Origin: Desulfarculaceae bacterium
Lineage (GTDB): Bacteria; Desulfobacterota; Desulfarculia; Desulfarculales; Desulfarculaceae
Assembly (NCBI GenBank): GCA_021737645.1
Contig: JAIPDO010000003.1
Coordinates: 59,981-123,980, forward strand
DNA: 64,000 nucleotides
Direction: 5' to 3'
Each line of letters begins with the position of its first letter. The stretch's first letter is position 1. A program made the translations under genes and the position numbers. The notes below the pieces were generated by a model that had not been told where the DNA came from, ran no database searches, and saw only the letters and a program-made list of their open reading frames with translations. Shown here piece after piece: positions 14,839-61,873 of the stretch.

Positions 14839-14887
14839 CCCGTGCCCACATTCTTAAATCCCGTTTTTGAATAAGGATTTTAACGCG

Positions 14888-16081: not shown

Positions 16082-16132
16082 TGACAACCCCGCATTTTTT
16101 CAGTCTCATTTGTGGTAGGGAGGGAATTTAGA

Positions 16133-22141: not shown

Positions 22142-22408
22142 ATGCGAGTGGAACTTTCCCAGGCTTTTGAAAAGATGGCAGGCCGCCCCTGCATAGAGAT
22201 CAGCCTGCAAGGGCCTACGCCCCTGCGCGATGTCCTAGGGCTTTTAGCGCGGGAGTGCGAGGCCTTTACCAAGTACCTGCTCTACCGGGACGATGCTTTG
22301 CTGGGGGCTCACCTTAGCGTTTTTTCTTCGGGAAAATTCTTGAAGCTCGATGACCCCGTGGACCACGGGGACACCTTGAAATTATTCCTGCCGGTCACCG
22401 GCGGTTGA
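22142..22408 (+). CDS. MoaD/ThiS-like ubiquitin-fold protein
   Basis: An 88-residue beta-grasp protein ending in a C-terminal Gly-Gly (FLPVTGG), the tail that is adenylated and thiocarboxylated in MoaD and ThiS. It sits 14 bp before the tungsten AOR gene, a common arrangement for AOR-linked MoaD proteins that may supply pterin dithiolene sulfur. MoaA, MoaE and MoeB are not in the window. Confidence 0.85.
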   Translation: MRVELSQAFEKMAGRPCIEISLQGPTPLRDVLGLLARECEAFTKYLLYRDDALLGAHLSVFSSGKFLKLDDPVDHGDTLKLFLPVTGG

Positions 22409-22422
22409 CGGAGGTAGCTACC

Positions 22423-31702: not shown

Positions 31703-31712
31703 ATCGCTTCCG

Positions 31713-32951: not shown

Positions 32952-33001
32952 CCAGGGCAACCTCATCGGTAAAAGAGTATAGATATTGCGTATGGGCCTA
33001 A

Positions 33002-40460: not shown

Positions 40461-42212
40461 ATGGCCGCCCAGCCCACATCGGAACTGACTCCCATTACCT
40501 CGCATTTCGACGCCTCCTCGGCCGGTGTCCTGGTCATCGACGCCAAGGGCATCGTGGTTTATGCCAACCCGGCGGCGGGGCGGATTTTCGAGCAGGCCCC
40601 CCTGGAAATCGTGGGCACTCCCTCGGAAATTTTGGAGCCTGAGGCCTGGCTGGCGGCCCGGGCCACCATCAAGAGCGGCGCCCCCCAATTGGGCAACCGC
40701 CTGCGCCTGGACCAGTGCAACGTGCTGGTCAATTATCTGCCCGTTTATGCCGACGGGCAGGTGCGCTGGGTGCTGGTGATGATGGGCGACCCCTGGGACC
40801 CGGATCAGGGATCGCTGTATCCCGAGCCCTACAAGGCCGTGGCCTCGCAGCTGGAAGCCATCATGGAGTCCTCCTTTGATGGCCTTTGGATCACCAACCA
40901 CCAGGGAGTGGTGGTCAAAATAAACCGGGCCGCCTTGCGCCTCACCGGCCTGCCCCGGGAAAAGGTGGAGGGCCGCTTCGTGGGCGATCTGCTCAACGAG
41001 GGCAACTTCAACGACTCGGTGACCTTGGAGGTGCTCAGGCGCAAGACCACGGTCACCATGGTGCAGAGCCTTAAGTCCGGCAAGAAGATCCTGGCCACCG
41101 GCAGCCCCATCTACGATGCCGAGGGCGAGATCGCCTTTGTGGTGATCAACGACCGCGACATAACCCTGTTGGACCGCATGCGCCGCCAATTGGAGGAGAG
41201 CGAGGCCCAGTTGGAGCAGTTCCGCAGCACGCTTTTGGACAAGCAGCTGGAGGAGATGTCCGACGATCACTTTATGTGCCGCAGCCGGGCCATGAAAGAG
41301 GTGTATGAAAAGGCCTTGCGCGTGGCCCCCACCAACTCCACGGTGCTGATCACCGGCGAGTCGGGGGTGGGCAAAAGCATGCTGGCCAAACTCATCCACG
41401 CCAAGTCTCCCAGGGCTCAGGGCCCCTTTGTGCGGGTGGACTGCGCGGCCATCCCCACCTCGTTGTTCGAGTCAGAGCTTTTCGGCTACGAACGGGGCGC
41501 CTTCACTGGAGCCAGCAGCCGGGGCAAACCCGGCCTGGTTGAGCTGGCCAACCAGGGGACTCTGTTCCTTGACGAGATCGGGGAATTGCCCCCCGAACAT
41601 CAGGTGAAGCTGCTGCGCTTTTTAGAGGCGCGCCGCATGATCCGGGTGGGCGGCTCGGTGGAAAAGGAGATCGACACCAGGGTGATCGCCGCCACCAACA
41701 AGGATCTGGCCGCCGAGGTGGAGGCCAAGCGTTTCCGGCACGACCTGTTCTACCGTTTCAATGTGGTGCCCCTTTTCGTTCCCCCTTTGCGCGAGCGCCC
41801 CAGCGACATCCTCTACCTGCTGGGTTTTTTCCTGAAACGCATCGGCGAGGACAACCAAATTCACAAGCAGCTCAGCCCTGAGGCCCGCACCCTGATGCTC
41901 AACTACAGCTACCCCGGCAACGTGCGGGAGTTGGAGAACATCGTGGAGCGGGTGCTGATCCTCAGCCCAGGTGAGGAAGTGCGCCCCGAGGACCTGCCCG
42001 GCGAGGTGCGCAAGGCCCAGGACCACGGCCAGGATCTGGACTGGGAGCAGGGCTTCGATCTGCGCCAGCGTCTGCGCGACCTTGAATTAGACTGGATTCG
42101 CGAGGCCTTACGGCGCTTCGGTACTCAGCGCAAGGTGGCACAACATCTGAGGGTGAGCCAATCGACCATCGCCCGCCGATTGCAAGAGGAAGAAGACCAT
42201 TTGATTCACTAA
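40461..42212 (+). CDS. Sigma-54-dependent activator with two PAS domains
   Basis: A 583-residue bacterial enhancer-binding protein. Two PAS sensor domains occupy residues about 20-115 and 130-250. The AAA+ domain has Walker [11 protein letters not shown] near residue 299, the sigma-54 contact loop GAFTGA near residue 347, Walker [13 protein letters not shown] near residue 368 and the [17 protein letters not shown] segment. A Fis-type helix-turn-helix ends the protein ([24 protein letters not shown]). It faces a downstream operon with a -24/-12 promoter and an upstream palindrome, so it almost certainly drives that operon. The sensed ligand is unknown. Confidence 0.95.
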
Positions 42213-42542: not shown

Positions 42543-42559
42543 TTGGCACGTTTATCGCT
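42543..42559 (+). promoter_or_regulatory. Sigma-54 (-24/-12) promoter
   Basis: TTGGCACGTTTATCGCT: TTGGCACG at the -24 element and TCGCT at the -12 element, with exactly 10 bp between GG (42545-42546) and GC (42557-42558). Only one base differs from the TTGGCACG-N4-TTGCT form. Transcription would start near 42570. Confidence 0.8.
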
Positions 42560-42571
42560 ATTACGGAGGGC

Positions 42572-42895
42572 ATGGGTCCACTAATTCCACATGAGATTGA
42601 GAAGTACCTGGATAGACGTTTGTCTCATCTCATTTCCCGGCTAGACCAGCCTGAGCTTCAGCAGCGCATCAAAGATCATCTAACTCAAATGGATGTGGAT
42701 ATAACCCACGAGAGCATAATTTCCGATTCGGTGGGGGTGCGCTGGTCGATTTTTTCCGTGCGCAGCGAAAGCGCCCGCCCGTTGGTGGTTGAGCTTATCG
42801 AAAACGGGTTCCCCCCTGACATTCGCGGCATAGACGCCCAGCCGCGGCGTGAAGGTGATAGGGCGAGGCCGCCTTTACAAGGGAGCGACTTGTGA
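42572..42895 (+). CDS. Hypothetical protein, first frame after the sigma-54 promoter
   Basis: A 107-residue frame from ATG 42572. The GTG at 42539 is excluded because it precedes the predicted transcription start. With a start point near 42570 the message would be almost leaderless, and the GGAGGG at 42565-42570 is too close to serve as a ribosome site, so the true start may be a downstream TTG. The N-terminal region predicts long helices (HEIEKYLDRRLSHLISRLDQPELQQRIKDHL), followed by a short mixed region. I recognise no family. It is separated from the binding-protein gene by 143 bp. Confidence 0.45.
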   Translation: MGPLIPHEIEKYLDRRLSHLISRLDQPELQQRIKDHLTQMDVDITHESIISDSVGVRWSIFSVRSESARPLVVELIENGFPPDIRGIDAQPRREGDRARPPLQGSDL

Positions 42896-43038
42896 CAGAC
42901 GCTCAGGTTGGTTTTGTAAACAGCGAGACTTTACTTGGCTGGTTGGCCGCGATTGGCCGCCAGGCAAAGGAAATAATTTCGGGCCGCCTTTCGGGCAGGC
43001 CCAGCGCGATGACTTAAACCACAGGGAGGTGCATAGAG

Positions 43039-44190
43039 ATGACAAAGTATAAATTTGGATCCCGCGCGTTGGTGGTGATGCTGGCGGCGGCTGCCTTGTT
43101 GGTGGCCGGTTCGTTGGCCATGGCCAAAGAGGCCGGCCAGTGGTGGCCGGTGAAGATCAACGCCTACTATGGCAAGTACGACGTCAAGGTGAAAAAGCCC
43201 GGCCGGCCCTGCGCCAGCCTGGACGGCCCCAAGGTGGAGGCATGGATTCCCCCCAAGCGGGCCAACAAGCCCTACACCATCGGCGTTTCCTTCCCCCACC
43301 TGAAAGACCCTTACTGGTTGGCGGTTAACTACGGCATCGTAAGCGAGGCCAAACGCCTGGGCGTGGGCATCAAGCTGGTGGCCGCCGGCGGCTACACCGA
43401 GCTGGCCAAGCAGGTTAACCAGGTGGAGAACCTGGCCCAGCAGGGCGTGGACGGCATCATCCTGGGCTCCATCTCCTACACCGGCCTGGACCCGGTGGTC
43501 AAAGAGATCACCGCCAAGGGTACCCCGGTGGTCGAGGTGATCAACGACATCCAGGCCCCCACCATCACCGGCAAGGCCATGGTCTCCTTCTATGACATGG
43601 GCTTCCACGCCGGCGAGTTCGTCATGGACGACGCCAAGGGCAAAAAAGACGTCAAGGTGGTCTTCCTGCCTGGTCCGGCGGGCAGCGGCTGGGCCCCGGA
43701 CACCCTGGACGGCTTCAAAGAGGCCATCAAAAAGTTCCCCGGCAAGGTCAACATCCTGGCGGTAAAGTGGGGCGACACCGGCAAGGCGGTGCAGCTTAAG
43801 CTCATCGAGAACGCCCTGCAGACCTTCCCCAAGATCGACTACCTGATCGGTAACGCCGTGGCCGCCGACGCCGCGGTGGGTCCGGTGGCCGAGCAGGGGC
43901 GCAAGGACGTCAAGATCGTGTCCACCTACATCATTCCCCCGCTCTACGACAAGATTAAAAAGGGCCAGGTGGCCGCGGCTCCCTCGGACCTGACCGTGAC
44001 CCAGGGCCAGATGGCCGTGGATATGATGGTGCGTATACTCAACGGCGAGAAGCCGGGCAAGGACTTCCCCTTCCGGGCCGGTCCCATCATCCCCACCATC
44101 ACCAAGAAGACCATCGACAAGTACCCCTATGACATGTTGTTCGGGCCGCGCTCCTTCCGGCCCCAGTTCAAGGTGGCACCCGGTAAGTAA
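43039..44190 (+). CDS. TorT-like periplasmic substrate-binding protein
   Basis: A 383-residue binding protein with a signal peptide (cleavage after SLAMA) and GGGAGG upstream of ATG 43039. It resembles TorT throughout: HLKDPYWLAVNYG near residue 96, VAAGGYTELAKQVNQVENL near residue 118, IIPPLYDKIKKGQVAAAPSDLTVTQGQMAVDM near residue 298 and a C-terminal SFRPQF. In E. coli TorT senses TMAO with TorS; here no TorS or TorA is present and an ABC ATPase and permease follow, so it acts as the importer's receptor. The ligand is unknown, plausibly a small cyclic amide. Confidence 0.87.
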   Translation: MTKYKFGSRALVVMLAAAALLVAGSLAMAKEAGQWWPVKINAYYGKYDVKVKKPGRPCASLDGPKVEAWIPPKRANKPYTIGVSFPHLKDPYWLAVNYGIVSEAKRLGVGIKLVAAGGYTELAKQVNQVENLAQQGVDGIILGSISYTGLDPVVKEITAKGTPVVEVINDIQAPTITGKAMVSFYDMGFHAGEFVMDDAKGKKDVKVVFLPGPAGSGWAPDTLDGFKEAIKKFPGKVNILAVKWGDTGKAVQLKLIENALQTFPKIDYLIGNAVAADAAVGPVAEQGRKDVKIVSTYIIPPLYDKIKKGQVAAAPSDLTVTQGQMAVDMMVRILNGEKPGKDFPFRAGPIIPTITKKTIDKYPYDMLFGPRSFRPQFKVAPGK

Positions 44191-44268
44191 TACCAAGACC
44201 TCAATTAGCACCGTGCCTGGCGGGCGTATGCGCGCCCGCCGGGCATGGTTGCCAAAGAGTGGTGAACC

Positions 44269-45825
44269 ATGTCCGAGCTATTGCTAAAGGCCGAAAACAT
44301 CACCAAGACCTTCCCTGGCGTCAAGGCCTTGGACAATGTTTCATTTGATCTCCGGCCCGGCGAGGTGCATGTGTTGTTCGGGGAGAACGGGGCGGGCAAA
44401 TCCACCTTGACCAAGGTGCTGGCCGGTTCCTATCTGCCCGACGAAGGCCAGATTTATCTGCGCGGCAAGAAGATGGCCTTCAAGAACCCCTACGACGCCC
44501 GCAGCCGGGGAGTTTCAGCGGTGTACCAGGAGTTCAGCCTGGTGCCCAAGCTCACGGTGGTGGAGAACCTTTTTCTGGGGCGCGAGCTGACCAAACACGG
44601 CCTTTTGGACAAGGAGGCCATGCTCAGGCAGGCCCGCGAGTCACTGGAGGATCTGGGCTTCGACCTGAACCCCATGGCCAAGGTGGGCGGCCTGAAACGG
44701 GCCGAGCGCCAGATGGTGGAGATTACCAAGGCCTTCCAGGAGAAGATGTCGGTCCTTATCTTGGACGAGCCCACCGCATCCTTGAGCGACAAAGAGGTGA
44801 TTCGCCTTTTTGAGCTCATCGTGCGCCTGAAAGGCGAGGGGGTGGGGATCATCTACATTTCCCACCGTATCGATGAGTTGAAAAAGGTGGGCGACCGCAT
44901 CAGCGTTTTGCGCGACGGCCGCAACGTGGCCACTCTGGACATGGCCGAAGCGAACGAGGAGAAACTTATCTCCCTGATGACCGGGCGCGATTATGAAGAA
45001 ATTTTCCCGGTAATCAACACCACTCCCGGCAAGGTGGTGCTGGAGGTGCAGAACCTGTCCACCGTCACCGGCCTGCATGACATCAGCTTCAAGGTGCGCG
45101 AGGGAGAGATCCTGGGCATCGCCGGGCTGGTGGGCGCGGGCAAGTCCCGGGTGGGCCGCGCCCTGTACGGCCTGGAGAAAATCACCGGCGGCACGGTGAT
45201 TATGGAGGGCTACGCGGTGGAGGAGCCCACCCCCATCGGGTCCCTGAAGCTGGGGGTGATGTACTTCCCGGCCGACCGCCACAAGGAGGGCTTGGTGCTG
45301 TGCCGTTCGGTGCGCGAAAACCAGACCATGGCCGCCTTGCCGCTGTTTGAAAAAAGAGGCCTCATCGACCTAAAGCGTGAGGAAAGCACGGTGCGCGGCA
45401 TCGTCAAGAAGATGAACGTGCGGCCGGGGCGCATCCACAAGGCCATCAACAACCTCAGCGGCGGCAACCAGCAAAAGGTGATGCTGAGCCGGGGCCTGAC
45501 CCGTGAGGTCAAGCTGTTTATCTTTGACGAGGCTTCCTGCGGCATCGACGTTGGGGCCAAGCGCGAGGTCTATCTTTTCCTTAAAGAGCAGGCTGAAAAA
45601 GGCGCGGCGGTGATCTTCATCTCCTCGGAGCTTACCGAGGTGCTGCATCTGAGCCACAACATCGTGGTGATGCATGCCGGCGCAATGGCCAAGACCATGC
45701 CGGGCAAGGGCGCCAGCGAGGAAGACGTGCTCAGCGCCTGCTTCGGCTACGACTATCAGAACATCTGTAACAACGGCGACGGCAGCCAGGACAACGGCTC
45801 CGTGGTCAACTCCATCGAGGGGTAG
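44269..45825 (+). CDS. Ribose/sugar-type ABC transporter ATPase (two ABC domains)
   Basis: A 518-residue duplicated ATPase of the RbsA/MglA class. The first domain has GENGAGKST near residue 40, RAERQMVEITKAF and ILDEPTASLSD near residue 163; the second has a variant P-loop GLVGAGKSR near residue 286, NLSGGNQQKVMLSRGL near residue 395 and LFIFDEASCGIDVG near residue 418. The second P-loop variant is normal for this class. It couples the TorT-like receptor to the permease, whose start codon lies 4 bp past its stop. Confidence 0.92.
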   Translation: MSELLLKAENITKTFPGVKALDNVSFDLRPGEVHVLFGENGAGKSTLTKVLAGSYLPDEGQIYLRGKKMAFKNPYDARSRGVSAVYQEFSLVPKLTVVENLFLGRELTKHGLLDKEAMLRQARESLEDLGFDLNPMAKVGGLKRAERQMVEITKAFQEKMSVLILDEPTASLSDKEVIRLFELIVRLKGEGVGIIYISHRIDELKKVGDRISVLRDGRNVATLDMAEANEEKLISLMTGRDYEEIFPVINTTPGKVVLEVQNLSTVTGLHDISFKVREGEILGIAGLVGAGKSRVGRALYGLEKITGGTVIMEGYAVEEPTPIGSLKLGVMYFPADRHKEGLVLCRSVRENQTMAALPLFEKRGLIDLKREESTVRGIVKKMNVRPGRIHKAINNLSGGNQQKVMLSRGLTREVKLFIFDEASCGIDVGAKREVYLFLKEQAEKGAAVIFISSELTEVLHLSHNIVVMHAGAMAKTMPGKGASEEDVLSACFGYDYQNICNNGDGSQDNGSVVNSIEG

Positions 45826-45829
45826 AATC

Positions 45830-46789
45830 GTGGACCTGCTAAAACGCATATTCGTCAAGGTGGGGGTGCTCCCCTTCCTGTTGGTGGCCTTGATTGCCCT
45901 GTTCAGCTTGGCCGAGCATCGCTTCATGTCTATGTCCAACCTGCTCAACGTGGGCCGCCAAACCACCTATTTGGCCATCGTCACCGCTGGGCAAATGCTG
46001 ACCATCCTGTGCGCGGGCTTCGACCTCTCGGTGGGCTTTTCGGTGGCGCTCACCAGCATCGTCACCTCCATGGTCATGGTGTCGGTGGCCGACCCCACCA
46101 CGGCCATGTTGCTGGGCATACTGGCCGGTATCGGCACCGCCACCCTGGTGGGCCTGGCCAACGGCATCACCATCGCCGTGTTCAGGGTGTCGCCCTTTGT
46201 GGTCACCCTGGGTATGCTTTCGGTGGCCCACGGCCTGGCTCTGCTGATTTCCAGCGGCGTGCCCATCTTCAACATGCCCGAGCAGCTCAACACAATCCTG
46301 GGCCTGGGCAGGGTTTGGGGCATCCCGGTGCCGGTGTTGGTGGCGTTGGCCATAGTGGCCCTGATCTGGCTGCTCTTAAGCCGCACCAGGGTGGGCCGCT
46401 ATTTCTACGCCCTGGGCGGCAACCGCGAGGCGGCCCGTTTGTCGGGCATCGCGGTGCGCAAATACACCGCCCTGGCCTATGTGCTCTGCGGTACCCTCAC
46501 CGGCATCACCGGGGTTATGCTCACCGCGCGGGTGGCCTCGGGGGAGCCCAACCTGGGCGCCAACCTGCCCCTGGAGTCCATCGCCGCCGCGGTCATCGGA
46601 GGAGTGAGCCTAAGAGGTGGCGAGGGCAGTATCATCGGAGCCATCTTCGGGGCAATCCTCATCGTGACCATGAGAAACGGCATGGACCTGATGAACATCA
46701 GCTCCTACCTCCAAATGGTGGTCATGGGCTGCCTGCTCATCTTCGCGGTGGTCATGGATCAGTTCCGGCTCTCCATGAAGGGCCGTTAA
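45830..46789 (+). CDS. Ribose-type ABC transporter permease
   Basis: A 319-residue RbsC-like permease starting at GTG 45830, 4 bp after the ATPase stop. It has about nine membrane segments; LCAGFDLSVGFSVAL near residue 61, LGGNREAARLSGIAVRKYTALAYVLCG near residue 195 and GGVSLRGGEGSIIGAIFGA near residue 257 are class signatures. It forms the inner-membrane channel for the operon's substrate. Confidence 0.92.
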   Translation: MDLLKRIFVKVGVLPFLLVALIALFSLAEHRFMSMSNLLNVGRQTTYLAIVTAGQMLTILCAGFDLSVGFSVALTSIVTSMVMVSVADPTTAMLLGILAGIGTATLVGLANGITIAVFRVSPFVVTLGMLSVAHGLALLISSGVPIFNMPEQLNTILGLGRVWGIPVPVLVALAIVALIWLLLSRTRVGRYFYALGGNREAARLSGIAVRKYTALAYVLCGTLTGITGVMLTARVASGEPNLGANLPLESIAAAVIGGVSLRGGEGSIIGAIFGAILIVTMRNGMDLMNISSYLQMVVMGCLLIFAVVMDQFRLSMKGR

Positions 46790-46810
46790 ACCAACAGTGG
46801 AGGAGTGATC

Positions 46811-47563
46811 ATGAACATTGATCTCAACGCTGACATGGGTGAATCCTTTGGCATGTACAAGCTCGGCAACGACGCCGAGTTCATGAAATACATCACCAGC
46901 GCCAACGTGGCCTGCGGGTTTCACGCCGGTGATCCCTCGGTGATGAAAGACACCGTGGCCCTGGCCAAAGAGTTCGGGGTGGCGGTGGGGGCCCATCCGG
47001 GCCTGCCGGACTTGCAGGGCTTCGGCCGCCGGGAGATGAAGCTCACTCCGGCCGAGATCTACGATTACACCATGTTCCAGGCCGGGGCCCTAAAGGGCTT
47101 CTGCGAGGCGGTGGGCCTCAGGCTGCACCACATAAAGCCCCACGGCAGCCTCTACGGCATGGTGCACCGCGACCCGGAGATGGCCGCCGCCGTGTGCCAG
47201 GCGGCCAAGGACCTGGACCCGGAGTTGTATCTCTACGTGATGCAAAAGGGCGTAATCGCCGACGAGGCGGAAAAAATGGGCGTACGCACCGTGTTCGAGC
47301 TTTACTCGGACCTGAGCTACGACCCCGAGGGCAACCTGGTGATCACCAGGGCCCACGATGCCCACGATCCGGCCCAGGTGGCCCAACGGGTGGTCAAGAT
47401 GGTCACCCAGGGCAAGGTGGCCGCCACCGACGGCAGCGAGATAGCCATAACCGGCTCCTCGGTGTGTGTGCACGGCGACACCCCCGGCTCCGATCAGATC
47501 GTCATGGCGGTGCGCCAGGCCTTGGAGGAGGCTGGTTGCGCACTGGCCTCGCCGGAGTTGTAA
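46811..47563 (+). CDS. pxpA: LamB/YcsF-family 5-oxoprolinase subunit A homologue
   Basis: A 250-residue PxpA. ATG 46811 follows GGAGGAG; GTG 46805 overlaps that motif. It carries the hallmark LNADMGESFG at residues 5-14, ACGFHAGDPSVM near residue 36, HPGLPDLQGFGRREM near residue 62 and HHIKPHGSLYGMV near residue 102. PxpA with PxpB and PxpC opens the lactam ring of 5-oxoproline using ATP. Here the carboxyltransferase-like partners come with biotin carboxylase and carrier genes, so the ring-opening mechanism may use carboxylation instead. Confidence 0.94.
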   Translation: MNIDLNADMGESFGMYKLGNDAEFMKYITSANVACGFHAGDPSVMKDTVALAKEFGVAVGAHPGLPDLQGFGRREMKLTPAEIYDYTMFQAGALKGFCEAVGLRLHHIKPHGSLYGMVHRDPEMAAAVCQAAKDLDPELYLYVMQKGVIADEAEKMGVRTVFELYSDLSYDPEGNLVITRAHDAHDPAQVAQRVVKMVTQGKVAATDGSEIAITGSSVCVHGDTPGSDQIVMAVRQALEEAGCALASPEL

Positions 47564-47612
47564 AAGAGCCCGAGCGCCGTGGGAGTGGCGCTAAACGTGA
47601 GGAGGTGACAGT

Positions 47613-48926
47613 TTGACCGCCAAACACAGCAATCAATCCCTGGGGTCGTTGCGCGAGCAAGCGGTGCCCCAGGGGCCCTTCAACACCACGCCCTACTTCA
47701 CGGACCGGGCCAAAGGCGCCGAGATCTGGGACGTGGAGGGTAATCGCTTCGTGGACTTCGCCGGAGGCATCGGTGTGGTCAACGTGGGCCACTGCAACCC
47801 CAAGGTGGTGGCGGCGGTAAAGGAGCAGGCCGAGCGCTTCATGCACACCTGCTTCCATATCGTGATGTACGAGCCCTACGTGGAACTGGCCCGCAGGCTA
47901 AACGAACTGACACCGGGCGATTTTGACAAAAAGACCGTTCTGGTGAACAGCGGGGCCGAGGCCGTGGAAAACGCGGTAAAAGCGGCGCGCTACTACACCA
48001 AGCGCCCGGCGATCATCGTGGCCGAGGGGGCCTTCCACGGCCGCACCCTGTTGGCCATGAGCATGACCAGCAAGGTCAAGCCCTACAAGTTCGGCTACGG
48101 GCCCTACGCGCCCGAGATCTACCGCATGCCCTATGCCTATTGCTACCGCTGCGCCTACAACCTGAGCTACCCCAGTTGCGGCATGGCCTGCGCCCACGGG
48201 CTGGAGGATTTCTTCATAGAGCATGTGGCCGCCGAGCAGACCGCGGCGGTGGTTCTGGAGCCGGTGCTGGGAGAGGGCGGCTTCGTGGTGCCCCCGCCGG
48301 AGTATTTCAAGATCATTTCCGAGATATGCCATAAGCACGGCATACTGTTGGTGGCCGACGAAGTGCAGACCGGAGTGTGCCGCACCGGGCGGATGTTCGC
48401 CATGGAGCATTTCGGGGTGGCTGCCGACATCACTACCGTGGCCAAGTCCATCGCCGGGGGCCTGCCCCTGGCCGGGGTGGTGGGCCGGGCCGAGGTGATG
48501 GAGGCCTCGCACAGCGGAGGCCTGGGCGGCACATACGGGGGCAACCCCGTGGCCTGCGCCGCGGCTCTGGCCGTGTTGGAGTTCATCGACGAGGTGGGCC
48601 TGTCCGCCAGGTCAGAGGCCATCGGCCAACGGGTGCGCGAGCGCTTCGAGGAAATGGCCCAGCGCTACGAGCTGATTGGCGACGTGCGCGGCCTGGGGGC
48701 CATGATGGCCATGGAGCTGGTGACCGACCGCCAGACCAAGGCCCCGGCCGGAGACCAGGCCAAGAAGCTGGTGGAGTGGTGCCACCAGCACGGCCTGATG
48801 CTTTTGTCCTGCGGTAAATACGGCAACGTAATTAGAACCCTCATGCCTCTGGTCATCAGTGATGACCTGTTGGAGGAGGGTTTGGATATTCTGGAAAAAG
48901 GATTGGCCGTCGTCAGCGAAAGCTAA
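47613..48926 (+). CDS. Class III (omega-amino acid) aminotransferase
   Basis: A 437-residue PLP enzyme starting at TTG 47613 with GAGGAGGTGA upstream. It shows VNSGAEAVENAVKAAR near residue 111, EGAFHGRTLLAMSMTS near residue 136, VADEVQTGVCRTGRMFA near residue 247 and the PLP lysine in TTVAKSIAGGLPLAG near residue 277. A Cys-rich insertion (CYRCAYNLSYPSCGMAC) near residue 180 is typical of a GABA/ornithine aminotransferase subgroup. It probably removes the terminal amino group of the omega-amino acid released from a lactam. Confidence 0.93.
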   Translation: MTAKHSNQSLGSLREQAVPQGPFNTTPYFTDRAKGAEIWDVEGNRFVDFAGGIGVVNVGHCNPKVVAAVKEQAERFMHTCFHIVMYEPYVELARRLNELTPGDFDKKTVLVNSGAEAVENAVKAARYYTKRPAIIVAEGAFHGRTLLAMSMTSKVKPYKFGYGPYAPEIYRMPYAYCYRCAYNLSYPSCGMACAHGLEDFFIEHVAAEQTAAVVLEPVLGEGGFVVPPPEYFKIISEICHKHGILLVADEVQTGVCRTGRMFAMEHFGVAADITTVAKSIAGGLPLAGVVGRAEVMEASHSGGLGGTYGGNPVACAAALAVLEFIDEVGLSARSEAIGQRVRERFEEMAQRYELIGDVRGLGAMMAMELVTDRQTKAPAGDQAKKLVEWCHQHGLMLLSCGKYGNVIRTLMPLVISDDLLEEGLDILEKGLAVVSES

Positions 48927-48960
48927 GATGGCCCAAGGCAACCCGAAAGGGGGCAAACAT

Positions 48961-49947
48961 ATGAGCCAAGGCAAATACGACGTAATTTTGGACACCATGC
49001 CGGCAACCGAGTCTCGCTTAGAGATTATGTTCCGCCAGGCAGGCGACGGCTTCATTCAGGTGGAGTACGGACGCGAGCAGCGGGCCATGTTGCAAGACTC
49101 TTTCCGCATGCTGGCGGTAAACGACATCATCATGGGCAAGGAGCTAAAGGGCCTCATCGAGACGGTGCCCGGCATTCGCACCAACCTGCTGCACTTCGAC
49201 CCATCGGAGCTGTCGGTGGACAAGCTCATCGACGCCGTAAAGGAGTCCGAGGAGTCCATGCCTACGGTGGACGATGTGGTGCTTCCCTCCCGCTTGATCC
49301 ACCTCCCCCTGGCCTTTGAAGACAGCGAGACCAAGAAGGCGGTGGCCAAATACCAGAAAGAGGTGCGCCCCGACGCGCCCAACATCATCAACGGCTACAA
49401 CCTCGAATACATGGCCATGTGCAACGGCATCACCGTTGACGAGACTAAAAAGATGATTCTGGGGACCGACTGGTTCAACAGCGGCGGCGGCTTCTGGCCG
49501 GGTGGGGCCTTCCTGTGGCCCACCGATCCCCGTTGCGCCATCGTGGTGCCCAAGTACAACCCCCCGCGCACCTGGACCCCCGAGGGAGCCGCGGGCATCG
49601 GCGGGCCCTGCGTGTTCACCTACACCACTCCCACCGGCGGCGGCTATCAGCTCTTCGGCCGCACCATCCCGGTGTTCCAGTTCGCCTGCAAGCACCCCAT
49701 GTTCAAGGACGGACCCTTCCTCTACCGCAACGCCGACCGGGTCCGCTTCCATGAGGTTAGCGAGAAGGAAGTGGTGGAGATATACGGCCACGTCCACGAC
49801 AAGACCGACTACACCTACGAGATTGACCAGGGCGAGATCAAGGCCAAGGAATACATCGAGTGGTTCAATTCCGAAGAGGTGCAAAAAGGCGCGGCGGAGC
49901 TTAAGGCCAAGCAGGCCGAGGGCACCAAGAAGGCCCCCAGGCTGTAG
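48961..49947 (+). CDS. Carboxyltransferase domain subunit AHS1 (PxpB/KipI and urea-carboxylase-like)
   Basis: A 328-residue protein starting at ATG 48961 behind AAAGGGGG; an in-frame ATG at 48928 is less likely. It matches the AHS1 half of the urea/allophanate carboxyltransferase: RQAGDGFIQVEYG near residue 25, GFWPGGAFLWPTDPRCAIVVPKYNPPRTWTPEGAAGIGGP near residue 178, and GGGYQLFGRTIP near residue 225. It is longer than E. coli PxpB, approaching the urea carboxylase domain. It should pair with AHS2 18 bp downstream to form the CT active site. Confidence 0.9.
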   Translation: MSQGKYDVILDTMPATESRLEIMFRQAGDGFIQVEYGREQRAMLQDSFRMLAVNDIIMGKELKGLIETVPGIRTNLLHFDPSELSVDKLIDAVKESEESMPTVDDVVLPSRLIHLPLAFEDSETKKAVAKYQKEVRPDAPNIINGYNLEYMAMCNGITVDETKKMILGTDWFNSGGGFWPGGAFLWPTDPRCAIVVPKYNPPRTWTPEGAAGIGGPCVFTYTTPTGGGYQLFGRTIPVFQFACKHPMFKDGPFLYRNADRVRFHEVSEKEVVEIYGHVHDKTDYTYEIDQGEIKAKEYIEWFNSEEVQKGAAELKAKQAEGTKKAPRL

Positions 49948-49965
49948 GGAAAGGAAGCAAAGCTT

Positions 49966-50949
49966 ATGCTGAAAATAATCAATGGCGGAATCGAAACTCT
50001 GGTGGAGGACTGGCCGGGACGGCTGGGCTACCTGGGCAAGGGCATGAGCGCCTCCGGGTCTTTTGACTGCGTGGGCCTGGGCCTGGCCAACGTGTTGGTG
50101 GGTAACCCCTCGGGCCAGGCGGGCATGGAGATCACCGGCGGCTTCTTCGAGGCCGAGTTCACCGACGACCACGTTATCGCCCTCACCGGCACGGACATGC
50201 AGCCCACCATCAACGGGGAACCGGTGGAGATGTGGACCTCGCTCAAAGTGAGCGCGGGCGACAAGATCAAGCTGCTGCACATCGCGCCCACCGGCTTCCG
50301 CTGCTACCTGGCCGTGGCCGGCGGCGTGGACGTGCCCGCCTACTTGGGCAGCAAGTCCACCTGCATCTTCGGGGCCTATGGCGGCTTTGACGGCCGCCCC
50401 CTGACCGCGGGCGACGAGGTGAAGTTCGGCGCGCCCAGCGCTGATCTTTCGGATCTGACCGGTCGCAAGCTGAAACCCGAGGCCATGCCCGAGTACACCA
50501 ACCAATGGGTGCTCAGGGCCATTCCCGGACCCAACACCTGCCCGGACTACGCCACCCAGGAGGGCATGGACCTGCTGTTCAGCCGGGTTTCCAAGATACA
50601 GCACACCTCCAACCGTTCGGCCTACCGCCTGGAGGAGTTGCCGGACAGCTTCTTCGCCCGCACCGACGGCGGAGTGGGCGGCAGCCATCCCTCCAATATC
50701 ATCGACCACGCCTACGCCATTCGCGGGGCACTGAACATCTGCGGCAACACCCCCATCCTGCTGGTGGCCGACGGCCCCACTCTGGGCGGCTACATGTGCG
50801 CCCTAAACGTGATCAACGCTGATCTGTGGAAGGTGGGCCAGGGCGCGCCGGGCCGGGACTTCATGCAGTTCCAACTGGCCACCCAGGAAGAGGCGATTCA
50901 AGCACGCAAAGAGCAAAAGCAATGGCTCAGCGAAGACTCGCTGGCCTAG
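49966..50949 (+). CDS. Carboxyltransferase domain subunit AHS2 (PxpC/KipA and urea-carboxylase-like)
   Basis: A 327-residue protein. AHS2 features are VEDWPGRLGYLGKGMSASGSFD near residue 13, GMEITGGFFEAEF near residue 49, YLAVAGGVDVPAYLGSKST near residue 108 and TSNRSAYRLEE near residue 211. With AHS1 it forms a heteromeric carboxyltransferase like that in urea carboxylase, which moves CO2 from biotin onto an amide nitrogen. The next two genes encode the matching carrier and biotin carboxylase. Confidence 0.9.
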   Translation: MLKIINGGIETLVEDWPGRLGYLGKGMSASGSFDCVGLGLANVLVGNPSGQAGMEITGGFFEAEFTDDHVIALTGTDMQPTINGEPVEMWTSLKVSAGDKIKLLHIAPTGFRCYLAVAGGVDVPAYLGSKSTCIFGAYGGFDGRPLTAGDEVKFGAPSADLSDLTGRKLKPEAMPEYTNQWVLRAIPGPNTCPDYATQEGMDLLFSRVSKIQHTSNRSAYRLEELPDSFFARTDGGVGGSHPSNIIDHAYAIRGALNICGNTPILLVADGPTLGGYMCALNVINADLWKVGQGAPGRDFMQFQLATQEEAIQARKEQKQWLSEDSLA

Positions 50950-50966
50950 TCAGAAAGGATAAAAAC

Positions 50967-51191
50967 ATGGAAAAGAGCGTAAACGCCATCATGCCCGGCC
51001 TGTGCGCCCGGGTGGTTGTCAACCAGGGCGACAAGGTGAGCGCGGGCCAGGAAGTGGCGGTCATTAACTGCATGAAAACCGAGATCTCGGTCAAGAGCGA
51101 GTTCGACGGCACGGTCAGCAAGGTGATCTCCAAGGAATGGGACGAGATGCAGGTGGGCGACCCCATGGTCATGCTGGAGGTCGAGGAGTAA
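50967..51191 (+). CDS. Biotin carboxyl carrier protein (74 residues)
   Basis: A compact biotinyl domain starting at ATG 50967 behind AGAAAGGA. The biotin lysine is K37 in INCMKTE; canonical carriers read (A/V)MK(M/T), so the preceding Cys is unusual. Gly-Asp turns (NQGDKVSAGQ, WDEMQVGDPMV) fit the lipoyl/biotinyl fold. It has no N-terminal extension and is probably a dedicated carrier for the adjacent AccC-like and AHS1/AHS2 subunits rather than for acetyl-CoA carboxylase. Confidence 0.93.
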   Translation: MEKSVNAIMPGLCARVVVNQGDKVSAGQEVAVINCMKTEISVKSEFDGTVSKVISKEWDEMQVGDPMVMLEVEE

Positions 51192-51200
51192 TCAGGCCCC

Positions 51201-52547
51201 ATGATTAATAAACTGCTTATAGCCAACCGGGGCGAGATCGTCCCGCGCATAATCCGCACCTGCCGCGAAATGGGCATCGCCACGGTGGCGGTGCATTCGG
51301 AGGCCGACAAGGATGCGCCGTTTCTGAGCCAAGCCGACCAGACGGTGAACATCGGGCCGGCCAACCCGGCCCAGAGTTACCTCAGCATGGAGGCCATCAT
51401 CGATGCGGCCCGCCAAACCGGCGCGGATGCGGTGCATCCGGGCTATGGCTTCTTGTCCGAGCGGGGGGCCTTTGCCCAGGCGGTGACCGACGCGGGTCTC
51501 ACCTGGGTGGGGCCGCCGCCCTCGGTGCTCAAGGCCATCAGCTCCAAGGTGTACGCCCGCAAGCTGGCCGTGGAAGTGGGCGCCGAGGTCACCCCCGGCA
51601 CTCTGGATCCGGTGAGCGGCCCTGAAGAAGTGGTGGCTTTCGGCTCCGAGCACGGCTACCCCCTGTTCCTCAAGTTGGACAAGGGCGGCGGCGGCAAGGG
51701 CATCGAAAGGGTGTCCGAGCCAGGCCAAGCGGCCGAGGTGTTCAAGCGGGCCTGCTCCATCGGCGAAATGGCCTTTGGTTCGCCCGCCTGCTACATCGAG
51801 ACCGAGGTGGTGCGCCCCCGGCACATCGAGGTGCAGTTCATCGCCGACGCGGCGGGCCATGTGGTCTGCCTGGGCGAGCGCGAATGCTCCATTCAGCGGC
51901 GGCACCAGAAGATCATCGAGGAGGCCCTCTCCCCGGTGGTGGACGAGGCCACCCGGGCCAAGCTCTACGCCGACACCGCGGCCATCGTCAAGAAGATGGG
52001 CTACGTGGGCGCGGGCACCCTGGAGGGTTTGCGCACCAAAAACGGCGACCACTACTTCATGGAGGTCAACGCCCGTTTGCAGGTGGAGCACCCGGTCAGC
52101 GAGTTCCTTACCGGGGTGGACATAGTGCGCAGTCAGCTGGAAGTGGCCATGGGCGGGGAGCTGCCCTGGAGCCAGAGCGAAATCAAGACTCAGGGCCACG
52201 CCATCGAGGCCAGGGTCTACGCCGAGGACCCGGATACCTTCTACCCATCGCCGGGGGTGATAACCAAGGTGGTGTTTCCGGAGATCGGCGACAACCTGCG
52301 GGTGGACCACGCCCTGGCCGACGGCTGCACTGTGCCGCCTTATTACGACCCCATGCTGGCCAAGGTCATCGCCTATGACCAGACCAGGGCCAAGGCTATC
52401 GCACGGCTTGTGGAGGCGCTGAGGGCCTTCCAGGTGGTGGGGGTCAAGACCACCATTCCCGTAAATCTCAGAATACTGGAGCATCCCCAATTCCAGGCCG
52501 GGGACATGGACACCAGCTTCATCGCGAAGCAATTGGGCCTGGTGTAG
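51201..52547 (+). CDS. Biotin carboxylase subunit (AccC-like)
   Basis: A 448-residue biotin carboxylase: LIANRGEIVPRIIRTCREMGI near residue 6, DAVHPGYGFLSE near residue 75, the ATP-binding KLDKGGGGKGIERV near residue 159, ECSIQRRHQKIIEE near residue 230, the catalytic EVNARLQVEHPVSE near residue 288 and GHAIEARVYAEDP near residue 332. It carboxylates biotin on the upstream carrier with ATP and bicarbonate. Its operon partners make a urea-carboxylase-like complex more likely than an acetyl-CoA carboxylase. Confidence 0.95.
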   Translation: MINKLLIANRGEIVPRIIRTCREMGIATVAVHSEADKDAPFLSQADQTVNIGPANPAQSYLSMEAIIDAARQTGADAVHPGYGFLSERGAFAQAVTDAGLTWVGPPPSVLKAISSKVYARKLAVEVGAEVTPGTLDPVSGPEEVVAFGSEHGYPLFLKLDKGGGGKGIERVSEPGQAAEVFKRACSIGEMAFGSPACYIETEVVRPRHIEVQFIADAAGHVVCLGERECSIQRRHQKIIEEALSPVVDEATRAKLYADTAAIVKKMGYVGAGTLEGLRTKNGDHYFMEVNARLQVEHPVSEFLTGVDIVRSQLEVAMGGELPWSQSEIKTQGHAIEARVYAEDPDTFYPSPGVITKVVFPEIGDNLRVDHALADGCTVPPYYDPMLAKVIAYDQTRAKAIARLVEALRAFQVVGVKTTIPVNLRILEHPQFQAGDMDTSFIAKQLGLV

Positions 52548-52558
52548 GAGCAGACAGC

Positions 52559-53653
52559 ATGGGTCAACTGAGCCGGCCCCTCGACGTGGGGGGCATGCAG
52601 ATAAGCAACCGCTTCTTGCGCTCCGCCACCATGGAGAACATGGCCGGGGCTAATGGCCAGGTGCGCCGCGACCTGCTCAGGCTCTACCACGAGCTGGCCG
52701 TGGGCGGCTGCGGGCTCATCATCACCGGGGCCACGGCGATCACCGCCGACGGCCGGGCCTGGGCCCAGCAGCTGGGGGCCTGGGACGATGCCCAGGTGGA
52801 GGGCCTTTCCCGCCTGGCCCGGTTGATCCATCGCTCCAACCCCACGGCCCGCTGCGCGGTGCAGCTGCACCACGTGGGCTCGGCCGGGGGAGGCTATTCC
52901 TACGGCTCCTTGACTCAGGGATTCGACCTGAACCGGGCCGCCGATGCCGACATCACCGAACTGGCCCGCGCTTTCGGCCGGGCCGCCGAACGGGTGCAGC
53001 GGGCCGGTTTCGACGCAGTGGCGGTGCACGGGGCTCACGGCTATTTGGTGAGCCAGTTCTTTTCTCCGGTGTTCAACCAGCGCCAGGACGGCTGGGGCGG
53101 CTCCCGCGAAAACCGGGGCCGCTTCCCCCTGCTGGTGCAGGAGGTGATTCGCCGCGAAGTGGGGCCGGACTTCCCGGTGCTCTGGAAGATGAACACCGAC
53201 GACTTCTTGCCCGAGGGAGCTGGCCGGGAGGATTACCTCTGGTTGGCCGGGCTACTGGCCCAGGCCGGAGCGGCGCTTATCGAGCTGAGCGGCGGGGTCA
53301 AGGAACAGGCCAAGCTGCGCAACCAGCTCCGCCGCGAAGCCGGGGAGCGAGAGGCCTATTTTTTGCCCGTCCTGGAGGCCTTCCGTTCGGCGGTGGGCGA
53401 CACACCCCTGGCCCTCACCGGCGGGATGCGCTCACGAGAGGTGATGGAAGGGGTTCTGGCCGCCGGGGCGGACATGGTGGGCCTCAGCCGCCCCCTGATC
53501 TGCGAGCCGGATTTTCCCAACCGCCTGCTTAACGGGCCGGACCGGCGGCGCTCCCGCTGCACCTCTTGCAATCGGTGCCTGCTAAGCGTGGCCAGTGAGC
53601 CCTTGACCTGTATGGAGTTCGATCCCTTTGAAAAAGTGATCAGAGATATCTAG
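52559..53653 (+). CDS. Old Yellow Enzyme-family NADH:flavin oxidoreductase
   Basis: A 364-residue OYE barrel: ISNRFLRSATMENMAG near residue 15, AVQLHHVGSAGGG near residue 101, VHGAHGYLVSQFFSPVFNQRQDGWGGS near residue 157 and GADMVGLSRPLICEPD near residue 303. The C-terminus has four cysteines, CTSCNRC and LTC (near 334, 337, 340, 351), a candidate iron-sulfur or zinc site. It is the last operon gene, 11 bp after the carboxylase. It may reduce an unsaturated ring or enoate intermediate; that is inference. Confidence 0.9.
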   Translation: MGQLSRPLDVGGMQISNRFLRSATMENMAGANGQVRRDLLRLYHELAVGGCGLIITGATAITADGRAWAQQLGAWDDAQVEGLSRLARLIHRSNPTARCAVQLHHVGSAGGGYSYGSLTQGFDLNRAADADITELARAFGRAAERVQRAGFDAVAVHGAHGYLVSQFFSPVFNQRQDGWGGSRENRGRFPLLVQEVIRREVGPDFPVLWKMNTDDFLPEGAGREDYLWLAGLLAQAGAALIELSGGVKEQAKLRNQLRREAGEREAYFLPVLEAFRSAVGDTPLALTGGMRSREVMEGVLAAGADMVGLSRPLICEPDFPNRLLNGPDRRRSRCTSCNRCLLSVASEPLTCMEFDPFEKVIRDI

Positions 53654-56704: not shown

Positions 56705-57814
56705 CTAATACAGTCTGTTGCGGAACAGCCACCCGGCGATGATCATGGTGACCACCCCGATCACCGCCATGGGCCAATACAGGGGTAACAGCAGGGACAT
56801 CTCCGCCCCCTCCAAAAACACCGTGCGTACGATCACCAAAAAATAGCGCAAGGGGTTGAGCAGGGTCAACTTCTGCACCAGCGCGGGCATGTTGGCGATT
56901 GGGGTGGCGAAGCCCGAGAGGATCACCGCGGGCACCAGGAACAGGAAGGCACCTAGAAGGGCCTGTTGCTGGGTCACGGCGATGGAAGAGATCATCAGTC
57001 CCAGACCCACCGCCGATATGATGAACAGCGCCATGCCCAGATAGAGGGCTCCCAAGCCGCCCAACATGGGCACCCCAAACATGTTCACGGTCAAAAATAC
57101 GATCAGGCTGCCCTCGGCCAGGCCGATGATGATGCCCGGCAGCGCCTTGCCGATCAATATTTCCGCCGGGTGCAGAGGGGTGACCAGCAGTTGGTCAAAG
57201 GTGCCCGCTTCCCGTTCCCTGGCCACGGACAAGGCGGTGACCACCAGAGCCACCACCAGGGTGAGAAGACCCACTATGCCCGGCACGATGAACCACCGGC
57301 TCTCCAGGTTGGGGTTGAACCAGGTGCGCACCTTGAGTTCGGCGGGCGGAGAGGCCCAGCCGTGGTCCTGTGACCATTGCGTGCTGAAGCTGGTGACAAT
57401 GGTGTTCACATAGCCGAACAACACCATGGCGGTGTTGGAGTTGCGCCCGTCGATGATCACCTGCAACTGACCGGAGCGGCCCTCAAGCATGTTGCGGGTG
57501 AAGTCCTGGGGGATGTGCAGCACCATCAACACCTTTTGATCGTTGATGGCCGGGGCGATCTGCTCCTGATGCTCCATGGTATCTGCCAGCTTGAAGGCCG
57601 GCGATCCTTTGAAGTAACCCAGCAATTCGCGTGAGGCTATGCCAGGGTCTTGGTTAAAGACCGCGTAGTTCACCTGGTTGAGGTCAAAGGTGGCCGCATA
57701 GCTGAAGATGAGCAGCTGGAACAAGGGCGGGATGATCAAAGTCATCCGGCTGGTCTTGTCCTTTAACAAGGCCAGGAACTCCTTGACCACCAGTGCCCAA
57801 ATACGCCTAAACAC
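56705..57814 (-). CDS. ABC-2 type exporter permease, YbhR-like
   Basis: A 369-residue ABC-2 permease: an N-terminal membrane anchor, a large extracytoplasmic domain (residues about 40-170) and five C-terminal membrane segments with AREREAGTFDQLLVTPLHPAEILIGKALPG near residue 203. It is last in the exporter operon and pairs with the adjacent paralogous permease, 9 bp upstream. The arrangement HlyD, fused ATPase, permease, permease mirrors E. coli ybhGFSR, an exporter for cationic drugs or ions. Confidence 0.9.
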   Translation of the reverse strand: MFRRIWALVVKEFLALLKDKTSRMTLIIPPLFQLLIFSYAATFDLNQVNYAVFNQDPGIASRELLGYFKGSPAFKLADTMEHQEQIAPAINDQKVLMVLHIPQDFTRNMLEGRSGQLQVIIDGRNSNTAMVLFGYVNTIVTSFSTQWSQDHGWASPPAELKVRTWFNPNLESRWFIVPGIVGLLTLVVALVVTALSVAREREAGTFDQLLVTPLHPAEILIGKALPGIIIGLAEGSLIVFLTVNMFGVPMLGGLGALYLGMALFIISAVGLGLMISSIAVTQQQALLGAFLFLVPAVILSGFATPIANMPALVQKLTLLNPLRYFLVIVRTVFLEGAEMSLLLPLYWPMAVIGVVTMIIAGWLFRNRLY

Positions 57815-57823
57815 CGCGCCCCC

Positions 57824-58954
57824 TCACTCAAGCCGTTTGCGGCTGCGCAGCCGCACCAGCCCCATGAACAACATGGCCATGATGACCAACGCCACGGAGT
57901 TCATAAGGATCACCGGCCACACGTTTCCCGCCAGGAATACGCTTTGCAGCACCTGCACGAAATAGCGGGCCGCGATGACGTGGGTGATGGCCTGCACCCA
58001 GCCGGGCATACTGCCTATGTCGAAGATAAAACCAGAAAGAATGAATGCCGGCAAAAAGGTGGTGAAGATGGCCAACTGGCCCGCCACGAACTGGTTGTGG
58101 GCCACGGTGGAGATGAGCAGGCCCATGCCCAGGGCGGCCAGCAGGAACAGGGCCGAGACGCCCATGAGCACCCATAGGCTGCCCCTGAGCGGCACCTCGA
58201 ACAGCCACACCGCCATGGCCACCGAGAGGATCTGGCCGCCCATGCCCAGCACGAAATAGGGGATGAGCTTGCCCAGCAATATTTCCCTCAGGCGCACCGG
58301 GGTGACCAAAAGGGCCTCCATGGTGCCGCGTTCCCATTCCCGGGCCACCACCATGGAGGTGAGCAAGGCGCCGATCAGGGTCATGATCACCGCGATAAGC
58401 CCAGGCACCAAAAAGTTGGTGCTGCGCACCTCGGGGTTGAACCAGATGCGCTGCTGCACATCCACCGGCAGGGTCACCTCCCGGCCTTGGCTCTGGGCGT
58501 AGCGCACCAGCCACTTTCCCCAGACCCCCTGCACGTACCCGGCCACGATGCGGGCGGTGTTGCCGTCCACCCCGTTGAGGAAAAGCCCGATGGGCGCGGG
58601 GCCACCGCTGAACAACTCCCTGGTGAAGTTGCTGCGTAGCCAGAGAATGCCCATCACTTCCCGGTGGCGCAGGGCTTCCTGGGCAGAGTGAATGTCGTTG
58701 AAGTGCTTGGGCTCGAACCATTTGGAGTCTTGGAAATCTCCGGTGAGGCTGGCCGTGGCCGGGCTGGGCTGCTCCACCACCAGGGCTATGGGCACGTTCT
58801 TGGCGTCCAAGGACACGCCGTAGCCGAAAAGAAACAGCAACAGGGCGGGCAGCACAAAGGCGATGGCAATGCTGGAGGGGTCGCGGATGATCTGGTAGGA
58901 CTCCTTGCGGATCAGCCCCTTGAGCCGCCGCCAACCCGGCAATCCCCGGCTCAT
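57824..58954 (-). CDS. ABC-2 type exporter permease, YbhS-like
   Basis: A 376-residue paralogue of the neighbouring permease with the same layout and the conserved AREWERGTMEALLVTPVRLREILLGKLIPYF near residue 210. Its start overlaps the ATPase stop by 4 bp, so the two are translationally coupled. It forms the transmembrane dimer with the YbhR-like protein. Confidence 0.9.
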   Translation of the reverse strand: MSRGLPGWRRLKGLIRKESYQIIRDPSSIAIAFVLPALLLFLFGYGVSLDAKNVPIALVVEQPSPATASLTGDFQDSKWFEPKHFNDIHSAQEALRHREVMGILWLRSNFTRELFSGGPAPIGLFLNGVDGNTARIVAGYVQGVWGKWLVRYAQSQGREVTLPVDVQQRIWFNPEVRSTNFLVPGLIAVIMTLIGALLTSMVVAREWERGTMEALLVTPVRLREILLGKLIPYFVLGMGGQILSVAMAVWLFEVPLRGSLWVLMGVSALFLLAALGMGLLISTVAHNQFVAGQLAIFTTFLPAFILSGFIFDIGSMPGWVQAITHVIAARYFVQVLQSVFLAGNVWPVILMNSVALVIMAMLFMGLVRLRSRKRLE

Positions 58955-60726: not shown

Positions 60727-60732
60727 GATCGC

Positions 60733-61776: not shown

Positions 61777-61873
61777 CTGACCTCCTAAAGAACCGCGGGG
61801 CAATTGTTTATCTTATACCCCATGTTTTGCCCAAGTAAAATCAGGACATTATTTTGGCGACACAAGGCCGCTT

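Follow-up and report, generated by a model that had tools for sequence, protein, structure and literature searches.

What might a bacterium do with a single operon that encodes an ATP-binding cassette (ABC) importer, a PxpA-type protein, an aminotransferase and all the parts of a biotin-dependent carboxylase? The question is raised by a locus at 42572-53653 of a 64,000-nucleotide stretch of a Desulfarculaceae bacterium genome (GenBank assembly GCA_021737645.1, contig JAIPDO010000003.1, positions 59,981 to 123,980), the whole of which is referred to here as the window. From its sequence we propose that the operon probably imports a lactam, N-carboxylates it, opens the ring to gamma-aminobutyric acid (GABA) and transaminates the product to succinic semialdehyde, with 2-pyrrolidone as the likely substrate. 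A TorT-type ABC importer would take up the small cyclic amide, and the biotin carboxylase (BC) would use ATP and bicarbonate to form carboxyphosphate and then carboxylated biotin on a 74-residue carrier. The paired transferase proteins AHS1 and AHS2 would transfer the carboxyl group from biotin to the nitrogen of the lactam, in the manner of urea carboxylase acting on urea, and PxpA would hydrolyse the activated ring amide to an N-carboxy amino acid that loses CO2 spontaneously; bicarbonate would thus be a recycled activator, at a net cost of one ATP. The aminotransferase would then give a semialdehyde, to be oxidised by aldehyde:ferredoxin oxidoreductase or another dehydrogenase.

The eleven genes are adjacent on the forward strand, all intact and without internal stops, in the order 107-residue protein, TorT-like receptor, ABC ATPase, permease, PxpA/LamB, aminotransferase, AHS1, AHS2, carrier, BC and Old Yellow Enzyme. 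They are separated by gaps of 143, 78, 4, 21, 49, 34, 18, 17, 9 and 11 bases, eight of the ten being shorter than 50. An activator gene upstream and all eleven genes recur in identical order in two genomes of the same genus (L083 and L084), and the same gene series is found in a more distant relative (L015/L088), there followed by genes for glutamate dehydrogenase and aldehyde:ferredoxin oxidoreductase. Since the order is kept in these relatives it is not a matter of chance, and the uninterrupted run of eleven same-direction genes described in the initial annotation is confirmed. Three start positions were corrected: AHS1 begins at 48961, PxpA probably at 46811 and the permease at about 45830. 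AHS1 was found at E ≤ 1e-60 in nine of 395 genomes sampled from the phylum, as a separate protein in eight of the nine, and in three of five sampled genomes of the genus including this one; the operon thus has the appearance of a catabolic unit with a patchy distribution.

The transferase halves carry most of the argument as to chemistry. By sequence, the nearest solved structure for both is Kluyveromyces lactis urea carboxylase, and for AHS1 this extends to the fold: a structure model (mean pLDDT 71.5, with residues 200-247 below 50) is closest to the urea carboxylase entries 3va7 and 5i8i and confirms a urea-carboxylase fold. Against the PxpB model AHS1 scores 35 bits (cut-off 146). Residues were compared, in the numbering of the K. 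lactis enzyme, in an alignment with urea carboxylase (UC), guanidine carboxylase (GC) and Pxp-type references. Lys1605, called the 'most likely' general base of urea carboxylase (PMC5770610), has its equivalent in all 49 AHS1 rows of the family; the five Pxp-type references have Arg at this position. The equivalent of Asn1330 is retained in all 47 AHS2 rows of the family. Asp1584, present in five of five UC/GC references, is missing from all 49 AHS1 rows, where a Pxp-like loop takes its place. In print, Asp1584 is required of guanidine carboxylases and Asp1330 separates these from urea carboxylases (PMC11410670); for urea carboxylases the use of position 1584 as a mark derives from the references aligned here. 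The family has neither the Asp pair at 1330 and 1584 of guanidine carboxylases nor the Asp1584 with Asn1330 of urea carboxylases, having lost Asp1584 and kept Asn1330. In a midpoint-rooted tree of 41 AHS2 rows (27 chosen from the 47 of the family, with 14 references) the family forms one clade (support 100/99), which is joined by Thermomicrobium roseum (95/90) and then by UC/GC (99/97); the Pxp-type sequences fall outside the group of family plus UC/GC (90/85), on long branches. Judged by residues and tree, AHS1/AHS2 is neither Pxp-type nor a urea carboxylase and has its own clade beside the urea and guanidine carboxylases. Because Lys1605 and Asn1330 are kept, Asp1584 is lost and the clade lies beside UC/GC, we infer that the pair transfers carboxyl groups and that its substrate pocket has been remodelled. 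Activation by carboxyphosphate, entertained in the initial annotation, is less likely than transfer via biotin, since the BC/carrier pair and the general base of urea carboxylase are both retained.

The remaining subunits are consistent with such a role. The BC aligns over almost its whole length with biotin carboxylases of known structure, and all 50 carrier relatives examined (48 of which are on distinct contigs) have the MK motif, so that by gene content the set of BC, MK-motif carrier and transferase is present. The PxpA protein passes the PxpA subfamily model NF003814 (327 bits, cut-off 226) and falls below the cut-offs of the PxpA equivalog models, while the nearest solved relatives of the aminotransferase are GABA transaminases. 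As an observation bearing on the last step, an aldehyde:ferredoxin oxidoreductase gene (AFOR_N, AFOR_C) lies at 22405-24255 (+) of the window and is a possible oxidant of the semialdehyde.

Scanning one genome per species gave 51 loci, mostly from Desulfobacterota/deltaproteobacteria and Bacillota, with one binned as Bifidobacteriaceae. Partners were counted in the 36 loci where AHS1 has 4 kb or more of flank in each direction, over a stretch of up to 10 kb on each side and on either strand. PxpA and AHS2 are present in 36 of 36, the carrier in 35 and BC in 31; also near the module are AOR (11 loci), biotin ligase (10), a PucR regulator (7), Fe-alcohol dehydrogenase (6), glutamate dehydrogenase (5) and a CapAB caprolactamase-like pair (4). 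The LamB partners belong to more than one lineage, at least two changes being forced by starred tree branches; it therefore seems that the association has been re-established and not just inherited. On balance we lean, from these sequences, towards a widespread, hitherto unrecognised class of four-subunit biotin-dependent lactam carboxylases that work with PxpA and a TorT-type importer and use reversible N-carboxylation to open unstrained gamma-lactams, with a proposed range of Desulfobacterota, Clostridia, Thermomicrobium and alphaproteobacterial plasmids. Deletion of gssR in Clostridium ljungdahlii raised a 'urea carboxylase', CLJU_c20480, and the PxpA CLJU_c20510 by log2 4.98 and 4.57, respectively (PMC10458427); from organism and gene order we infer that these genes are our locus L035.

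Some relatives depart from this arrangement. A haloarchaeal one (L062) has no PxpA among the annotated genes of the stretch fetched. A DUF1097 protein, a candidate transporter, is encoded near 19 of the 51 loci, often just downstream of LamB (e.g. 14568-15080 in L049), and these loci belong to Bacillota as far as they were looked at. In Rhizobium phaseoli (L070, 2-8 kb) genes for carrier, BC, a hypothetical protein, PxpB, an AHS2-type carboxyltransferase, PxpA and a PLP aminotransferase stand in a row, which is a biotin-linked module with Pxp-type halves. A Citrobacter plasmid (L065, 2.4-8.7 kb) carries genes for an NRAMP transporter, PxpA, a putative hydro-lyase, a fused AHS1-AHS2 with Arg at the 1605 position, like PxpB, and a biotin carboxylase-type protein; matches on Klebsiella plasmids (H37-H41) have the same product name as the L065 match.

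The importer bears on the substrate. By sequence alone the receptor has both TorT-like and sugar-type relatives, which does not decide its ligand. It falls below the cut-off of TIGR02955 (TorT; 243 against 310 bits), passes the same-named NF008185, and is adjoined by ABC transporter genes. The best 15 of 192 matching plasmid records were all inspected, and in 13 of these the receptor gene adjoins PxpA-carrier-AHS1-AHS2, with BC as well in 12 of the 13. In Mesorhizobium (L094, 1.5-15 kb) the TorT-like importer lies beside the unrelated HyuAB pair, a succinic semialdehyde dehydrogenase (SSADH) and aminotransferases, and in L102 a receptor relative stands beside neither the carboxylase module nor HyuAB. 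The receptor locus L103 also holds a GABA transaminase and GabD; L091 has SSADH, carbonic anhydrase, bioB and 8-amino-7-oxononanoate synthase; a GABA transaminase lies near the module in L092, and BioY in L060. Around this one module there thus appear genes for supplying bicarbonate and biotin and for breaking down GABA. The strongest evidence that the receptor ligand is a lactam is this pairing with two unrelated lactamase types and with GABA, biotin and bicarbonate genes. A sugar importer was considered and rejected on the same neighbourhood test. Hydroxylase genes of the CoxMSL/xanthine dehydrogenase type adjoin the module in L060, L093 and L104, and might yield a lactam from an N-heterocycle.

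Table. Features of the operon and its upstream region (positions in the window).
Feature	Position	Strand	Support
PAS-sigma54-HTH enhancer-binding activator, probable operon regulator	40461..42212	+	Sigma54_activat 226 bits, PAS, HTH (Pfam)
Candidate -24/-12-like sigma-54 site, TGGCACG-TTTA-TCGCT	42544..42559	+	Shuffle test
107-aa protein, function unknown	42572..42895	+	No Pfam match
TorT-like periplasmic receptor, predicted lactam receptor	43039..44190	+	NF008185 307 bits (cut-off 200)
ABC importer ATPase, RbsA/AraG type (ribose/arabinose)	44269..45825	+	Family scans
ABC importer permease, start not certain	45830..46789	+	PF02653 129 bits
PxpA/LamB, predicted ring-opening subunit	46811..47563	+	PF03746 318 bits
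Class III aminotransferase, GABA-transaminase type, TTG start not certain	47613..48926	+	TIGR00700 577 bits (cut-off 507)
AHS1 / CT_C_D, urea-carboxylase-like, Asp1584 absent	48961..49947	+	TIGR02712 229 bits
AHS2 / CT_A_B, Asn1330 kept	49966..50949	+	TIGR02712 281 bits
Biotin carrier-type protein, 74 aa, motif NCMKTEI	50967..51191	+	PF00364 52 bits
Biotin carboxylase	51201..52547	+	Three Pfam BC domains
Old Yellow Enzyme-family flavoprotein, C-terminal cysteines, accessory	52559..53653	+	PF00724 165 bits

Biotin-linked ring opening of this kind could instead be directed at 5-oxoproline, giving glutamate. PxpA is named for that substrate and the window protein is over a PxpA cut-off, but the genome has a separate PxpA and a fused PxpB-PxpC-type protein with Pxp-type residues, and a further PxpC-like gene occurs in five of eight split-type genomes (one, G113, being undecided). 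A GABA-type aminotransferase or SSADH would be unnecessary for glutamate, and neither the residues nor the tree place the transferase halves with the Pxp type; we consider a biotin-assisted 5-oxoprolinase improbable. A plain PxpABC enzyme was rejected on the separate Pxp-type set, the residues and the tree, the PxpC score itself not being discriminating. That the carrier and BC instead belong to a neighbouring acyl-CoA carboxylase, leaving PxpA and AHS1/AHS2 to act alone by phosphorylation as is assumed for PxpABC, appears quite improbable. The BC does match acetyl-CoA carboxylase models best, yet below their cut-offs, and PDB entry 9yx5 is titled as MSMEG_0435-MSMEG_0436, which are of AHS1/AHS2 type, bound to the Mycobacterium smegmatis long-chain acyl-CoA carboxylase complex; set against this are the carrier in 35 and BC in 31 of the 36 well-flanked loci, the genes for biotin ligase, BioY, bioB or carbonic anhydrase near some loci, and the Lys at the position of Arg in the Pxp references. 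Taken for itself, the title of 9yx5 may be a precedent for physical contact between AHS proteins and biotin carboxylase subunits. A split urea or guanidine carboxylase is suggested by TIGR02712, the best profile for both halves, and some sources do call these proteins urea carboxylase. It is nonetheless highly improbable, given the universal loss of Asp1584, the separate clade and the PxpA gene in every well-flanked locus. Allophanate hydrolase was not found over its cut-off in any of 22 split-type genomes (eight from the phylum sample and 14 further); the best matches there reach at most 257 of 511 bits, like generic amidases in most control genomes, whereas in G153, the sole relative whose urea carboxylase is fused, an allophanate hydrolase gene adjoins (748 bits). 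The urea or guanidine carboxylase was rejected on the Asp1584 and allophanate hydrolase tests.

The alternative with the most in its favour retains the chemistry and changes the ring, to valerolactam, a hydantoin, a dihydropyrimidine, creatinine, or an unsaturated lactam readied by the Old Yellow Enzyme. It is common for omega-aminotransferases to act on several omega-amino acids, the Old Yellow Enzyme gene is found in nine of the 51 loci, and both the CoxMSL genes beside three modules and the CapAB-like genes of four loci would suit such substrates. On the other hand the aminotransferase is over the GABA-transaminase cut-off, GabD/SSADH recur, and the regulators are of known GABA-regulator types. 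A ring other than 2-pyrrolidone is a possibility to be taken seriously, though an unlikely one. The Old Yellow Enzyme gene, which the initial annotation had drawn into the pathway, occurs in only eight of the 36 well-flanked loci and is better regarded as accessory and outside the core.

We return to the proposed opening of 2-pyrrolidone by N-carboxylation. Residues, phylogeny, the lack of allophanate hydrolase and the neighbouring genes give good support to the N-carboxylation, PxpA opening, transamination and import first envisaged for this operon, while the chemistry and the substrate are predictions only. A number of observations weigh against the proposal. The PxpC model gives the window AHS2 174.1 bits and the Pxp-type fusion of the same genome 174.7 (cut-off 500) and so does not tell them apart; the verdict that the halves are not PxpB/PxpC consequently rests on the residues (Lys/Asn against Arg/Gln) and the tree. 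Two of the five Arg references, from R. phaseoli and Citrobacter, also adjoin biotin carboxylase genes, and Lys1605 therefore does not cleanly identify a biotin module. The stretch fetched lacks BC in five of the 36 loci and the carrier in one, and a class III aminotransferase is near the module in only 17. Against the SSADH model, with its cut-off of 646 bits, the best aldehyde dehydrogenase of this genome reaches 333. Eleven of the 13 module-linked receptor neighbourhoods are alphaproteobacterial, and hence not independent. In the importer-linked alphaproteobacterial modules Lys1605 is kept in six of six transferases read but position 1330 is Gln in five of five (in L101 the pattern found no match), which makes these transferases a sister type; their motif kin from R. 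leguminosarum and Shinella fall outside the group of UC and split family, so that any conclusion drawn from alphaproteobacterial neighbourhoods crosses a deep branch. The parallel drawn below with the lamA and lamB genes of Aspergillus nidulans takes the protein P38095 to be LamA, as it is named in UniProt.

Regulation is consistent with a GABA-related role. The activator has a GAFTGA loop at residue 346, and its gene lies upstream of the operon in L010, L015, L083 and L084 too. Scored with our own weights against 2000 first-order shuffles, the -24/-12-like site, with TGGCACG at its -24 end, has P values of 0.004 in the window, 0.004 in L083, 0.03 in L084 and 0.08 in L010; no such site was found in L015 by the same test (P 0.5-0.6). 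The predicted transcription start falls about 2 bases before the first ATG (42572), downstream of a ribosome-binding-like GGAGG, which makes either the promoter or the start codon provisional. The site is a candidate, conserved but ambiguous; the label 'sigma-54 operon' has a further basis in the adjacent activator. Each of the two regulator types, PAS-sigma54-HTH and PucR, has a counterpart known to govern GABA genes, namely GabR of B. thuringiensis and GabR of C. glutamicum, respectively (PMC7652997).

The 107-residue protein has relatives in the same place in L010 (78%), L083 (79%), L084 (52%) and L015 (32%). Elsewhere, the window encodes an iron-containing alcohol dehydrogenase followed by a Peripla_BP_6-type periplasmic binding protein (14867-17350, +), two neighbouring MoeA proteins, one with a fused PBP-like domain (29774-32966, -), and HlyD, a double ABC ATPase and two ABC-2 permeases, probably an exporter operon (56705-61803, -).

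Contrary to what had initially been suggested, the pathway is not wholly new, for it has a genetic precedent in Aspergillus nidulans, where AmdR controls lamA and lamB, which act in lactam catabolism, along with gatA (GABA transaminase) and gabA (PMC8016842). P38095, an A. nidulans protein of 1,241 residues, has been treated as a urea carboxylase (PMC3073912). Both systems share the LamB/PxpA family and a link to GABA transaminase, which here lies inside the operon, and both would join a LamB homologue to a biotin carboxylase of urea carboxylase type, if P38095 is LamA. The lam locus is fungal, with the carboxylase fused in one chain, whereas the present system is bacterial and split and has its own importer. 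The lam locus is not known to have an ABC importer or to form an operon, and no account of its mechanism was found in the literature examined. With PxpABC the system shares the PxpA subunit, and AHS1/AHS2 are distantly homologous to PxpB/PxpC; it differs in having transferase halves of urea carboxylase type, by residue and tree, together with BC and a carrier. With urea and guanidine carboxylases it shares the BC, CT(A-B), CT(C-D) and carrier domains, Lys1605 and, with the urea type, Asn1330, but in four chains, with Asp1584 missing and PxpA nearby in every well-flanked locus. Adjacent split urea-carboxylase transferase genes have been noted, without functional data (PMC3199775).

Five- and six-membered lactam rings are very stable. 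ATP-driven opening of unstrained lactams is common to this proposal and to HyuAB, CapAB and OplAB, and a TorT-type importer also stands beside HyuAB in L094, but those enzymes are of other protein families and have no biotin subunits. Carboxylation was one of three possible mechanisms considered for caprolactamase (PMC8453981), and OplAB acts on gamma-butyrolactam at no more than a trace level (PMC11033972). According to the latter paper, no mild enzymatic hydrolysis protocol had been reported by 2023 for monocyclic gamma- and delta-lactams. No description of a bacterial biotin-dependent lactamase was found among the matches listed, which comprised titles and the starts of abstracts, most subscription journals lying outside coverage.

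If the proposal is correct, a biotin-dependent lactamase would help to fill this gap in lactam hydrolysis, which takes in the nylon-4 monomer and the pyrrolidones, and carboxylation would be used as a removable activating group. It would also bear on the role of bicarbonate in ATP-dependent lactamases, given as an open question in PMC8453981. Several automatic annotations (urea carboxylase, acetyl-CoA carboxylase, 5-oxoprolinase and TorT) would be corrected and a family of TorT-like importers would gain a ligand, and the route would account for a widespread and apparently mislabelled set of genes.

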